64,000 bases of DNA from Ignavibacteriaceae bacterium. GTDB taxonomy: Bacteria > Bacteroidota > Ignavibacteria > Ignavibacteriales > Ignavibacteriaceae. A model generated the notes under the pieces. It did not search any database. It was not told the DNA's origin and was given only the letters and a program-made list of their open reading frames with translations. The DNA lies in contig JABWCL010000013.1 in NCBI GenBank assembly GCA_013360295.1, positions 1 through 64,000 on the forward strand. The letters run 5' to 3'. The translations under genes were made by a program, and so were the position numbers. Shown here piece by piece: positions 47,953 to 52,230 of the stretch (position 1 is the stretch's first letter; every line of letters begins with the position of its first letter).

Positions 47953-49248
47953 ATGAAAAAGTTAAATGTATTTTTATTGTTATTTGGCGCGTTGAGCTTT
48001 TCCGCTTTCGCGCAGGAAGAAGAAAAACCGGTAAAAGAGCCGGTTGAAGAATGCTCGTATGCATCTTTTGGCATCCCTACATCAGCGGCGGGAATATCAT
48101 TCGGTAACTCAAAAAGATTCAGCGGCATCAGAATTAATGTGGTTGATTGCGGAGTTGAAAGAGTTGACGGAATCAATCTCACACTCTGGAGAGCGAATAA
48201 AAATTCAGCTCCCGAAGTAAATGGTTTCTCGATAGGAGTATTTCCTTCAACCGGCGACCTGACGGGATATGGTTTTGGCCTGGCGGGAATGGTTGCTAAG
48301 GGTAACGTACTCGGCATAACAAATGTAGGATTAGCCAGTGTGGCAGGTGGCAGTATGAAGGGAATTCACAACGCCGGACTCGCGATTGTGGCAGAAGACG
48401 ATATCTACGGTTTAGGACAGGCAGGACTTGCTATTGTATCCGGTGGTGAGATGAAAGGTATTTTCCTTTCCGGACTCGCTAACGTATCCGAAGGTGAAAC
48501 TTTTGGTATAAACGCCGCAGGACTTGCTGTGGTTTCGCAGGGGGGAATGAAAGGAATAAATTTTGGCGGGCTGGCAGCTGTTTCGCAGGAGGCAATCTAC
48601 GGAATTAATTTCGGAGGCCTGGCGCTGATATCTCAGGGTGGGCTGAAAGGAATAAATGTAAGCACGCTCGCGGCGATCGGGCAGGATGGAATAACCGGAC
48701 TGAATCTGAGCGGTCTTGCTTTAGTGGCTCAGGAAGAAATAACCGGACTGAACTTAAGCGGAGTAGCGCTTGTCGCTCAGGAGGGTATCACCGGCCTGAA
48801 TTTTGGCGGTGCAGCGGTAGTTTCGCAGGAGAGGATATTAGGACTTAATATCAGCGGCGGCGCTCTCGTCTCCCAGGAAAATATTCTAGGATTGAACGTC
48901 GGTGGTTTAGCGATTGTTTCCGATAAGGCAAATATTACCGGCATCAACGCGTCTCTCGGAAAGATCTTCGCCGATAATGCAATCACAGGATTGAACGTGG
49001 CGGGATATAATACGGAGACGGAGTTAGTTAAAGGAGTGAATGTAAACGCCATCTGGTCGGATATCGATATGCTGAAGGGATTGTCCGTCGCGGGGTTTAA
49101 CCAAATAAACGAAAAACAATACGGACTGACAATTGGTTTGTTTAATTACGCAGAGGACCTTCAGGGTGTGCAGATTGGTTTGCTGAATATGGTGAAGTCG
49201 AATCCGGTGTATGCGAGGATATTGCCGGGGGTTAACGCACGGTTTTAG
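47953..49248 (+). CDS. Surface protein with 16-residue repeats
   Basis: 431 residues. A signal peptide (VFLLLFGALSFSAFA) and a short non-repeat region (about 20-110) precede some 15 repeats with a period of 16 residues, consensus (I)xGLNxxGLAxVSQEx; examples are TGLNLSGLALVAQEEI and TGLNLSGVALVAQEGI. The last units turn into YGLTIGLFNYAEDLQGVQIGLLN. This matches the LA_2272-type surface repeat proteins and predicts a solenoid or beta-helix. Function unknown; adhesion or scaffolding is a guess. AAGGATTTTACG precedes the ATG. The 48-bp DNA repeats can recombine and change length. Confidence 0.82.
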   Translation: MKKLNVFLLLFGALSFSAFAQEEEKPVKEPVEECSYASFGIPTSAAGISFGNSKRFSGIRINVVDCGVERVDGINLTLWRANKNSAPEVNGFSIGVFPSTGDLTGYGFGLAGMVAKGNVLGITNVGLASVAGGSMKGIHNAGLAIVAEDDIYGLGQAGLAIVSGGEMKGIFLSGLANVSEGETFGINAAGLAVVSQGGMKGINFGGLAAVSQEAIYGINFGGLALISQGGLKGINVSTLAAIGQDGITGLNLSGLALVAQEEITGLNLSGVALVAQEGITGLNFGGAAVVSQERILGLNISGGALVSQENILGLNVGGLAIVSDKANITGINASLGKIFADNAITGLNVAGYNTETELVKGVNVNAIWSDIDMLKGLSVAGFNQINEKQYGLTIGLFNYAEDLQGVQIGLLNMVKSNPVYARILPGVNARF

Positions 49249-49946: not shown

Positions 49947-50318
49947 TTACCGGGAGGGAGGCGCGGCCTTTATCGGGTTATACCCCTCCTCCCCGAACGG
50001 CTGAAGTTCTTCCGTGAACATCGCCTCGAGGATATCCAGCTCCTTTTTCATATCAAAAGACGGACTGTCTTTTGGTTTTTGCGTTGCCAGGATTTCGAAG
50101 GAGAAATTTGCGGTGCCGTAATCCGTCCAGTCCTTCTGCAGTTCTTTATTGGGGTGCAGCCCGGCATCAAGCTGAAAGCGGTGACGGTTCCATATAGCGT
50201 CCAGATTGACGCTGCTCCCGATAAATATTTTACCGTTCGCATTGTTTTTAATCTGAAAAACACCCGCCGGTTTTGGCGCGAGTTTGTATTGGTCTTTAAT
50301 TTGTTTGCGTGATAACAT
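49947..50318 (-). CDS. GIY-YIG nuclease family protein
   Basis: 123 residues. The family's first strand pair reads GVFQI and IFIGSS (GIY and YIG replaced by GVF and FIG). Downstream come the catalytic-region Arg in NRHRF, the KELQKDWTDYGTANFSFEIL stretch seen in stand-alone Bacteroidota members, a Glu in ILEAMFTEEL, and Asn in GYNP. With the metal-binding Glu and Arg apparently present it may cut DNA, but the substrate is unknown. The upstream gap contains ATAATA-TCTGG-TATTAT (50331-50347), a small dyad. Confidence 0.8.
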   Translation of the reverse strand: MLSRKQIKDQYKLAPKPAGVFQIKNNANGKIFIGSSVNLDAIWNRHRFQLDAGLHPNKELQKDWTDYGTANFSFEILATQKPKDSPSFDMKKELDILEAMFTEELQPFGEEGYNPIKAAPPSR

Positions 50319-50375: not shown

Positions 50376-51698
50376 TTATGAAATCTTCCTAATTGATTCA
50401 ACGGCATAAAGAGGTATCGTTTCCACCGCGCCATATCGCGAGAAATTCTCAGCGGAGAAACGGATACCTCTTTCACACTTCTTTTCCTTCATAAAAATGT
50501 GCAGGCTTTTCATTGAACCTTTACCTCCGGATTTGACTTCAACAGGCACAATTTTTCCGCCCGCCCGGATAACGAAGTCCACTTCCGCGTTACTGCTTTT
50601 TGCTTCACGGTGCCAGTAAAAAAGCTCAGGAGGTTCATAACAGGACGCTGTTTTTATTAATTCCAGTCCCACAAATTGTTCGGCAAGGTTTCCCTTATTG
50701 ATTACTTCAAAATCAGTTGTGGTTAAAAATTCACTAAGGTCAAGCCCCATAGCCCGCTGAAAAAGCCCGGTATCCAGCAAAAGCATTTTTTGGCGTTTGG
50801 GATTTGCCTCCGCCCCGAGAGGTAACCCGTTTGCGGCGGTATGAGTGACAGGGATAACCAAACCCGCTGTTATCAGGAGGGACAGAGCGGTTTTAATCTG
50901 CGAATGATTGGCATTCGCGCTTCCCGCTGAATAGACGAACTTGCCGCCAGCCTGGGCTATTACCGACTGAAATACTTCCTGCAGCAATGAGACATTGAAC
51001 CGTTTTTTGTATTTCGCGAAGTCAGTCCTGAAGGCAACAGTCAGGTCGGTCAGAAGCGCCTGACATTTATTTATATCCCCGCTCTCTATATACTCCGCTG
51101 CCGCCTGAGGCATTCCCCCGACGAGCATAAATTTTCTTACAAGCCCAAGTAATTTTTGGTGAACGGCATCCGGCAACGGAGCCTCTGAACTAGCCTTTTC
51201 CAGAATTCCAAGCAGGTTTTCTTCCCCCATACCGATCAGGAACTCACTGAAGCCGAGGGGATAGAGAAAAAGCGAACGTATCCTTCCTACCCCGAAAGTC
51301 GGAATCTCCGAGAGAGCAAACTCCAGCAATGATCCTGCGGAGATTAAATGCAACCCGGGCATTTTCTCGTAAAAATAGCGGAGCGATGCTATAGCGTTTT
51401 GACAGGATTGGATCTCGTCAAAGAACAGAAGAGTCTTGCCGGGAATGATAGCTGTTCTATAAATCGCGCTGAGATTTTCACAGATGCCTGCAGGCGAGAG
51501 ATCACCTTCAAACAGTGATCTGACTGAAGGGCTCTCTTCGAAATTTACTTCGATAAAGTTTTCGAAAGTTTTGCCAAACTCGCGAATGGTTTTTGTCTTA
51601 CCAACCTGTCGCGCTCCCCGGATTAAAAGCGGTTTATGATCATTCTCTTCTTTCCACTTCAGGAGTTCACTATCTATTTTTCGGGGTATATATTTCAT
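50376..51698 (-). CDS. AAA-type ATPase with DUF4143 domain
   Basis: 440 residues. The N-terminal ATPase has Walker A GARQVGKT (28-35, Lys34) and Walker B LLFFDEIQ, with a sensor-like ISAGSLLEFAL. The C-terminal DUF4143 part includes VGGMPQAAAEYI, SLLQEVFQSV and a PD-(D/E)XK-like segment (AEVDFVIRAGGKIVPVEVKSG) with Asp, Glu and Lys in order. Such proteins are common in Bacteroidota and archaea, often variable between strains. Their role is unsettled; DNA-related or toxin-antitoxin-like functions have been proposed. The ATG at 51698 lacks a Shine-Dalgarno sequence and lies directly beside an array of palindromic sites. Confidence 0.88.
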   Translation of the reverse strand: MKYIPRKIDSELLKWKEENDHKPLLIRGARQVGKTKTIREFGKTFENFIEVNFEESPSVRSLFEGDLSPAGICENLSAIYRTAIIPGKTLLFFDEIQSCQNAIASLRYFYEKMPGLHLISAGSLLEFALSEIPTFGVGRIRSLFLYPLGFSEFLIGMGEENLLGILEKASSEAPLPDAVHQKLLGLVRKFMLVGGMPQAAAEYIESGDINKCQALLTDLTVAFRTDFAKYKKRFNVSLLQEVFQSVIAQAGGKFVYSAGSANANHSQIKTALSLLITAGLVIPVTHTAANGLPLGAEANPKRQKMLLLDTGLFQRAMGLDLSEFLTTTDFEVINKGNLAEQFVGLELIKTASCYEPPELFYWHREAKSSNAEVDFVIRAGGKIVPVEVKSGGKGSMKSLHIFMKEKKCERGIRFSAENFSRYGAVETIPLYAVESIRKIS

Positions 51699-51700
51699 TT

Positions 51701-51812
51701 TTATAAAAATACAAGGTTAAAAATAAGGAAAATGTGAAAAATACAAGGATAAAATAAGAAGATATTGTAAAAATACAAGGATAAAAACGGTAAGAATTGT
51801 AAAAATACAAGG
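51701..51812 (-). promoter_or_regulatory. Four operator-like repeats at exact 32-bp spacing
   Basis: ATACAAGG begins at 51709, 51741, 51773 and 51805, each 32 bases apart. It is part of TTGTA-N4-TACAA, a palindrome that is perfect at 51765-51778 and 51797-51810 and changed in one half at 51701-51714 and 51733-51746. The array lies immediately upstream of the DUF4143 ATPase start. Spacing of 32 bp is three DNA turns, so proteins on the sites would line up on one face. Confidence 0.7.
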
Positions 51813-51833
51813 ATGGGTGTTTTTTAATTAACT

Positions 51834-52044: not shown

Positions 52045-52230
52045 ATTAAGAATTTCATTTATTCAACTCAAAATCCCACAGGGGATTAAGAATTTCATTT
52101 ATTCAACTCAAAATCCTACAGGGGATTAAGAATTTCATTTATTCAACTCAAAATCCCAAGGGGGATTAAGAATTTCACCCATTCAACTCAAAACCCCAAG
52201 GGGGATTAAGAATTTACTTTATTCGGGTTG
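52045..52230. repeat. 40-bp tandem repeat array
   Basis: Four full units at 52045, 52085, 52125 and 52165 with an exact 40-base period, and a degenerate fifth from 52205. The unit begins ATTAAGAATTTCATTTATTC and ends AACTCAAAATCCCACAGGGG with small changes. Across each junction AATCCC and GGGATT form a 6-bp hairpin. There are no unique spacers, so it is not a CRISPR array. It sits upstream of tRNA-Arg. Confidence 0.85.

Follow-up and report, generated by a model that had tools for sequence, protein, structure and literature searches.

The window (the whole 64-kb stretch of DNA analysed) contained a gene for a DUF4143 ATPase and, directly before its start codon, an array of four phased repeat copies (Table 1). 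ATACAAGG was found on the plus strand at 51709, 51741, 51773, and 51805, with steps of exactly 32 bp as the earlier note had reported; read toward the gene, the array unit was the 16-bp CCTTGTATTTTTACAA, present in four copies at 32-bp steps. The dyad TTGTA-N4-TACAA was perfect at 51765 and 51797 (gene-distal), while 51701 had one mismatch and 51733 more than two, and these counts bore out the further observation that the dyad was perfect in the two distal copies and altered in the two gene-proximal ones. The nearest copy had been said to abut the start codon, and only 2 bp indeed lay between it and the ATG at 51698. TRF called the array at 51704-51814, with a period of 32 and 3.5 copies.

Table 1. 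The ATPase gene, its predicted winged-helix codons, and the repeat copies before it (positions in the window)
Feature	Positions	Strand	Remarks
DUF4143 ATPase gene, 440 aa	50376..51698	-	ATG at 51698; intact; AAA_14 + winged helix + PD-(D/E)XK
Predicted winged-helix codons, residues 232-310	50769..51005	-	Domain model and PDB fold matches
Repeat copy 1, CCTTGTATTTTTACAA	51797..51812	-	Farthest from gene; dyad perfect
Repeat copy 2, CCTTGTATTTTTACAA	51765..51780	-	Dyad perfect
Repeat copy 3, CCTTGTATTTTTCACA	51733..51748	-	Right half altered
Repeat copy 4, CCTTGTATTTTTATAA	51701..51716	-	One right-half mismatch; 2 bp before ATG

The 64-kb window had six ATACAAGG sites, namely the four in the array plus two unrelated single sites; shuffled sequences averaged 1.8 such sites and never contained more than 5. 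Across the whole 4.46-Mb genome, pairs of ATACAAGG lying 20-30 bp apart were found only at the window array, and TTGTAN4TACAAGG with at most one mismatch was found three times in the array and at four single sites elsewhere; the window array was unique in its 4.46-Mb genome.

Three other features of the window were recorded: (i) an interspersed minisatellite family, with a 40-bp unit (ATTAAGAATTTCATTTATTCAACTCAAAATCCCAAAGGGG) repeated in tandem 4.5 times at 52045-52224, adjoining tRNA-Arg(CCG), and related copies at up to nine further sites spread over several contigs of the genome; (ii) 48-bp in-frame tandem repeats at 48532-48800 in the ORF 47953-49248, encoding a repeated peptide of the GLNxSGLALVxQ type; and (iii) a small ORF downstream of the ATPase gene at 49947-50318, with a GIY-YIG nuclease match slightly below the Pfam cut-off.

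The window ATPase matched AAA_14 at residues 21-154 (Pfam E 2.7e-24) and DUF4143 (Pfam E 3.3e-28), both above cut-off, and the PADLOC PDC-S01 profile covered residues 4-438 (E 5.7e-143). Among 54 homologues, the Walker A residues G28..G33-K34, the Walker B residues D94-E95, and the PD-(D/E)XK residues D374, E387, and K389 were invariant, and E340 was near-invariant. The protein is by profile a member of the PDC-S01 / AAA_14-DUF4143 group and a putative phage-defence nuclease, and the predicted catalytic residues of both its ATPase and its nuclease are intact. PDC-S01, in which an ATPase and a PD-(D/E)XK domain are joined in one protein, is ranked in PMC12988326 as fourth in frequency among defence candidates across prokaryotes (about 29,500 copies in bacteria and 10,000 in archaea), and candidates of this type are there said to be awaiting experimental validation in most cases.

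The AlphaFold2 model of the window ATPase had a pLDDT of 92.5, and a winged helix (about residues 232-310) was placed after the AAA+ module; residues 207-330 modelled alone reached a pLDDT of 90.8. This winged-helix model matched mostly winged helices in the PDB (MarR, SmtB/ArsR, Fur, and CodY) and aligned to Cdc6/Orc1 2qby_A with Z 8.2 (3.2 A over 94 residues). For the AAA+ plus winged-helix part, the nearest solved folds were the archaeal ATPases 2qen (Z 17.0) and 2fna (Z 15.6); Orc1/Cdc6 2qby and DNA-bound Cdc6/Orc1 were also among the best fold matches of the window ATPase, and the NLRs, CED-4, and Avs5, which are oligomerising relatives by fold, ranked high in the comparison. A sequence search gave no convincing homologue among solved structures. 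By these models, the ATPase carries a predicted DNA-binding domain, the winged helix.

Most upstream regions of 38 homologues from many phyla contained tandem repeats of about 33 bp, and the repeat sequence differed from one homologue to another. A period test was applied to the family: each 150-bp upstream region was scored for self-similarity at all shifts of 15-60 bp, against dinucleotide-preserving shuffles, with an array called significant at p ≤ 0.01 and no period presupposed. Start codons were set by rule as the nearest plausible start before Walker A; the sampled loci were all bacterial, and many came from metagenome-assembled genomes, related loci being non-independent. In the first set, 39/62 upstream regions were significant, every one at 32, 33, or 34 bp, and 4/58 downstream regions were significant, with scattered values. 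The second set, composed of the first plus plasmid loci and paralogues, comprised 78 non-redundant loci of the window clade: 47 upstream regions were significant (14 at 32, 32 at 33, and 1 at 34), and the best period was 31-34 in 62/78 upstream regions versus 7/78 coding controls and 8/67 downstream regions, with 5/67 downstream regions significant, one of them at 33 bp. A held-out set of 60 loci, taken from two more phylum-wide searches together with the paralogues of three of those genomes, gave 40/60 significant arrays (39 at 32-34) and a best period of 31-34 in 49/60 versus 4/60 controls.

The combined 138 non-redundant loci contained 87 significant arrays, 86/87 with a period of 32-34; the binomial value for 86/87 was vanishingly small but overstates independence, the loci being related. 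The best period was 31-34 in 111/138 upstream regions versus about 8% of coding controls and 11% of the upstream regions of neighbouring genes, and no significant array preceded neighbouring ORFs in the same loci (0/101 upstream regions). About one third of the loci gave no significant array, and the best shift lay outside 31-34 in about one fifth; L058 and L112 escaped the 15-60 bp test with copies two units, or 66 bp, apart. According to record labels, significant arrays were found in Bacteroidota, Ignavibacteriales, Alpha- and Gammaproteobacteria, Oligoflexia, Chlamydiota, candidate division TM6, Lentisphaerae, Actinomycetota (Collinsella), and Bacillota (Agathobacter). The repeats had diverged beyond recognition with the period unchanged, which argues for selection on the spacing. 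On this comparative evidence, the array is a trait of the ATPase family, of which the window case is one instance, and it precedes most genes of the clade in at least seven bacterial phyla. The three-turn phasing and the tie to DUF4143 ATPases, both proposed from the window alone, were supported by the comparison of homologue upstream regions; as for the findings that the earlier note had named as telling against it (a motif absent or unphased before orthologues, or scattered at random in the genome), the outcome clearly favoured the earlier note.

Copy-to-copy spacing in the relatives was 32 or 33 bp nearly throughout, with two to five copies per array and the last copy close to the start codon. 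The palindrome emphasised in the earlier note did not hold as the general unit: dyad symmetry was significant in only 13/47 arrays and borderline in the window array itself (p = 0.05), being strong in some clades, e.g., ACACTTTTTCG-NN-GGAAAAANTGT and AAAACAG-GGGG-CTGTTTT. The palindrome was rejected as a family-wide unit and is a local variant, the conserved features being the direct repeat and the 32/33-bp phase. In relatives it is mostly the direct repeat, rather than the dyad, that is kept, so the window unit is better described as an asymmetric 16-mer, CCTTG-N6-TACAA, pointing toward the gene. Orientation was kept as well: the oriented core C[CT]TTG-N6-[AGT]AC[AC]A was forward at 10 loci and reversed at 1, and CCTTGTRTTTT was forward at 16 and reversed at 1. 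L026 had a second 33-bp array of the same repeat, GCCCCGACTTTACGACA, directly past the ATPase stop (after 4314) and before the next ORF; the ATPase may control a second gene there; alternatively, arrays may flank its own gene.

The more distant DUF4143 subfamilies had 24/92 significant upstream regions, 14 at 31-33 and several others near 22-23 or 52-53, periods that are also near whole numbers of helical turns; phased arrays thus seem to extend beyond the window clade in a less uniform form. Some arrays of these subfamilies (e.g., L201, L137, L076, L144, L086, and L163) had periods of 22-23, 38, or 52-53 bp, and the other periods could reflect different oligomer geometry. Very large expansions of DUF4143 ATPases were observed in the genomes that contain L043 (G207; 33 copies in 1.9 Mb), L045 (G208; 23 in 1.3 Mb), and L036 (G205; 22 in 2.1 Mb). 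Distant relatives were present on phage-labelled gut contigs, and no relatives were confirmed on viral contigs.

The repeats of paralogues and orthologues were then set against each other. Paralogues within one genome had unrelated repeats with the same period, their mean repeat similarity being 5.64 versus 5.66 for the reverse-complement control (28 pairs in four genomes), while orthologues more than 65% identical in different genomes shared the repeat (15.1 versus 7.4). This comparison made a single shared host regulator for all arrays unlikely; no recurring regulator gene was seen beside the ATPase among the neighbours in annotated plasmid loci. The repeat sequence appears specific to the gene's own product rather than to the host, and since a repeat private to each ATPase has that ATPase as its simplest reader, the pattern suggests that every ATPase binds the array before its own gene. 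The earlier proposal of the ATPase as binder gained comparative support in this way, with the protein standing as a candidate binder. An initial correlation of motif with protein was weak, as repeats become unrecognisable below about 60% protein identity. The winged helix was no better than the ATPase domain as a predictor of the repeat (partial Mantel test, 117/300 permutations equally good), so recognition by the winged helix is proposed from the fold alone.

Recognisable promoters tended to overlap or abut the arrays in a subset of loci: L048 had TTGACA-N17-TAAAAT within the array (p<0.01), L107, L035, and L030 each had a promoter inside the array or at its edge, and L104 had one nearby; in L104 and L109, the whole array was upstream of the promoter that scored best. 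The Bacteroidota -7 box TAnnTTTG was found in 15/39 upstream regions versus 5.1 expected (three times commoner), often inside the last repeat or just after it, and many arrays extended as far as the start codon or the -10/-7 region. On the coding strand of the window gene, the promoter search gave nothing of the sigma-70 type. Across the family, the gene's own promoter is thus accompanied by several sites in fixed helical phase, and because a protein bound at a promoter would most simply block transcription, the regulation is likely repression.

Taken together, the array is probably a dedicated operator of the ATPase gene, bound cooperatively by the winged helix of the gene's own product and autorepressing. 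Under this model, the array would be a dedicated cis-regulatory site of the ATPase gene, and the ATPase would bind it through the winged helix with one subunit or dimer per repeat; repeats three turns (32-33 bp) apart would lie on one helix face, and AAA+ modules on adjacent sites would touch, giving cooperative binding over and beside the promoter. The bound protein would keep synthesis of the potentially harmful ATPase-nuclease low, and its loss or titration, e.g., in phage infection, would lift the repression. What the sequences show is the array with its fixed period, its confinement to the gene family, its divergence alongside the ATPase, and the independent repeats of paralogues sharing a genome; that the ATPase binds, that it does so cooperatively, whether it represses, and what triggers release are the parts that we infer.

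The array evidence fits any role that requires ATPase binding, and the protein might instead bind mainly to activate the promoter, or for storage or assembly as an oligomer on DNA. The high rank of the oligomerising NLRs, CED-4, and Avs5 in the fold comparison and the arrays wholly upstream of the best promoter in L104 and L109 would suit such roles, and activation would also agree with the varying promoter placement and with the window gene, whose coding strand gave no sigma-70-type promoter; many arrays, however, run into the -10/-7 region or up to the start codon, where a bound protein would usually block RNA polymerase, and a mainly activating or storing role is considered unlikely. A more far-reaching and likewise unlikely proposal is that the array is a docking platform on which a phased oligomer of the ATPase-nuclease is stored, the promoter array then being both off-switch and sensor; if this were true, a phage that degrades or remodels host DNA or seizes transcription would free both expression and active protein, and one gene would be a complete self-contained defence sensor, regulator, and effector.

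Autorepression by the ATPase was further weighed against readings in which the ATPase is not the regulator of its own gene. Defence islands offer a precedent for a separate repressor that acts on repeats, namely RptR and its three direct repeats (PMC12255303), and a separate host transcription factor with the ATPase as one member of its regulon is conceivable on that basis; it is nonetheless very improbable given the unrelated repeats of paralogues in one genome, the uniqueness of the array in the window genome, the persistence of period and orientation over phyla with different regulators, and the inspected plasmid loci, where no regulator gene recurred next to the ATPase. If the array marked an element end, a cleavage site, or an immunity site that the ATPase-nuclease recognises in DNA processing or mobility, and its promoter position were incidental, this would be in keeping with the intact PD-(D/E)XK site, the patchy and multi-copy distribution, and the arrays on both sides of the L026 gene, but confinement of the arrays to the promoter region, with the downstream figures of 5/67 and a single one at 33 bp, makes this highly improbable. 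There is hardly any likelihood that the array is a neutral tandem duplication, promoter-like sequence present in several copies, or a structured RNA leader: single repeats do resemble promoter boxes in some genomes, and the window transcript folded slightly better than shuffles (z -2.2), but slippage would not fix one period over unrelated sequences, the sequence between repeats has diverged with the spacing retained, neighbouring genes had no arrays, and the five other leaders tested gave z -1.8 to +0.5. An RNA leader structure was unsupported by the folding z-scores of these six leaders and by Rfam, which had no matches in the window but tRNA.

Period-locked, sequence-diverged arrays would predict the DNA target of each ATPase from genome sequence alone, and the many natural protein-site pairs would allow the recognition code of the PDC-S01 ATPase class to be learned. 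The arrays would also imply that a potentially toxic nuclease keeps its own level under tight control, and they would constrain the geometry of the bound oligomer to one unit per 32-33 bp. The available text of PMC12988326 gives no mechanism for PDC-S01 and does not mention its regulation, an operator, or repeats, and the arrays offer a concrete handle. The open-access literature gave no description of the regulation of PDC-S01/DUF4143 ATPases; DUF4143 was met in open-access full text in connection with Argonaute in Thermus.

The closest described case was RptR, a separate small repressor of a defence-island locus that acts at three direct repeats overlapping the promoter; these are 9 bp long, lie 58-31 bp upstream of the start, and contain a short palindrome (PMC12255303). 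RptR and the PDC-S01 arrays shared direct repeats at the promoter of a defence or candidate defence locus, but they differed in that RptR is a separate repressor with 9-bp repeats, whereas the PDC-S01 repeats are 32-33 bp apart and their likely binder is the effector ATPase itself; the PDC-S01 arrays would thus be distinguished by effector specificity, three-helical-turn spacing, and family-wide occurrence. The archaeal ATPases 2qen/2fna and Orc1/Cdc6 resembled the window ATPase in having an AAA+ module followed by a winged helix. Orc1/Cdc6 binds origin DNA; it has no nuclease domain, however, and the window array lies at a promoter and at no known origin. For 2qen/2fna, we know of no phased promoter array. 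MalT-type STAND activators are oligomerising ATPases with repeated promoter boxes, but MalT activates other genes, whereas each PDC-S01 gene has its own array. Cooperative autoregulatory operator arrays are a known kind of regulation, and what appears to be new is the PDC-S01 case, in a very common and uncharacterised family of defence candidates.
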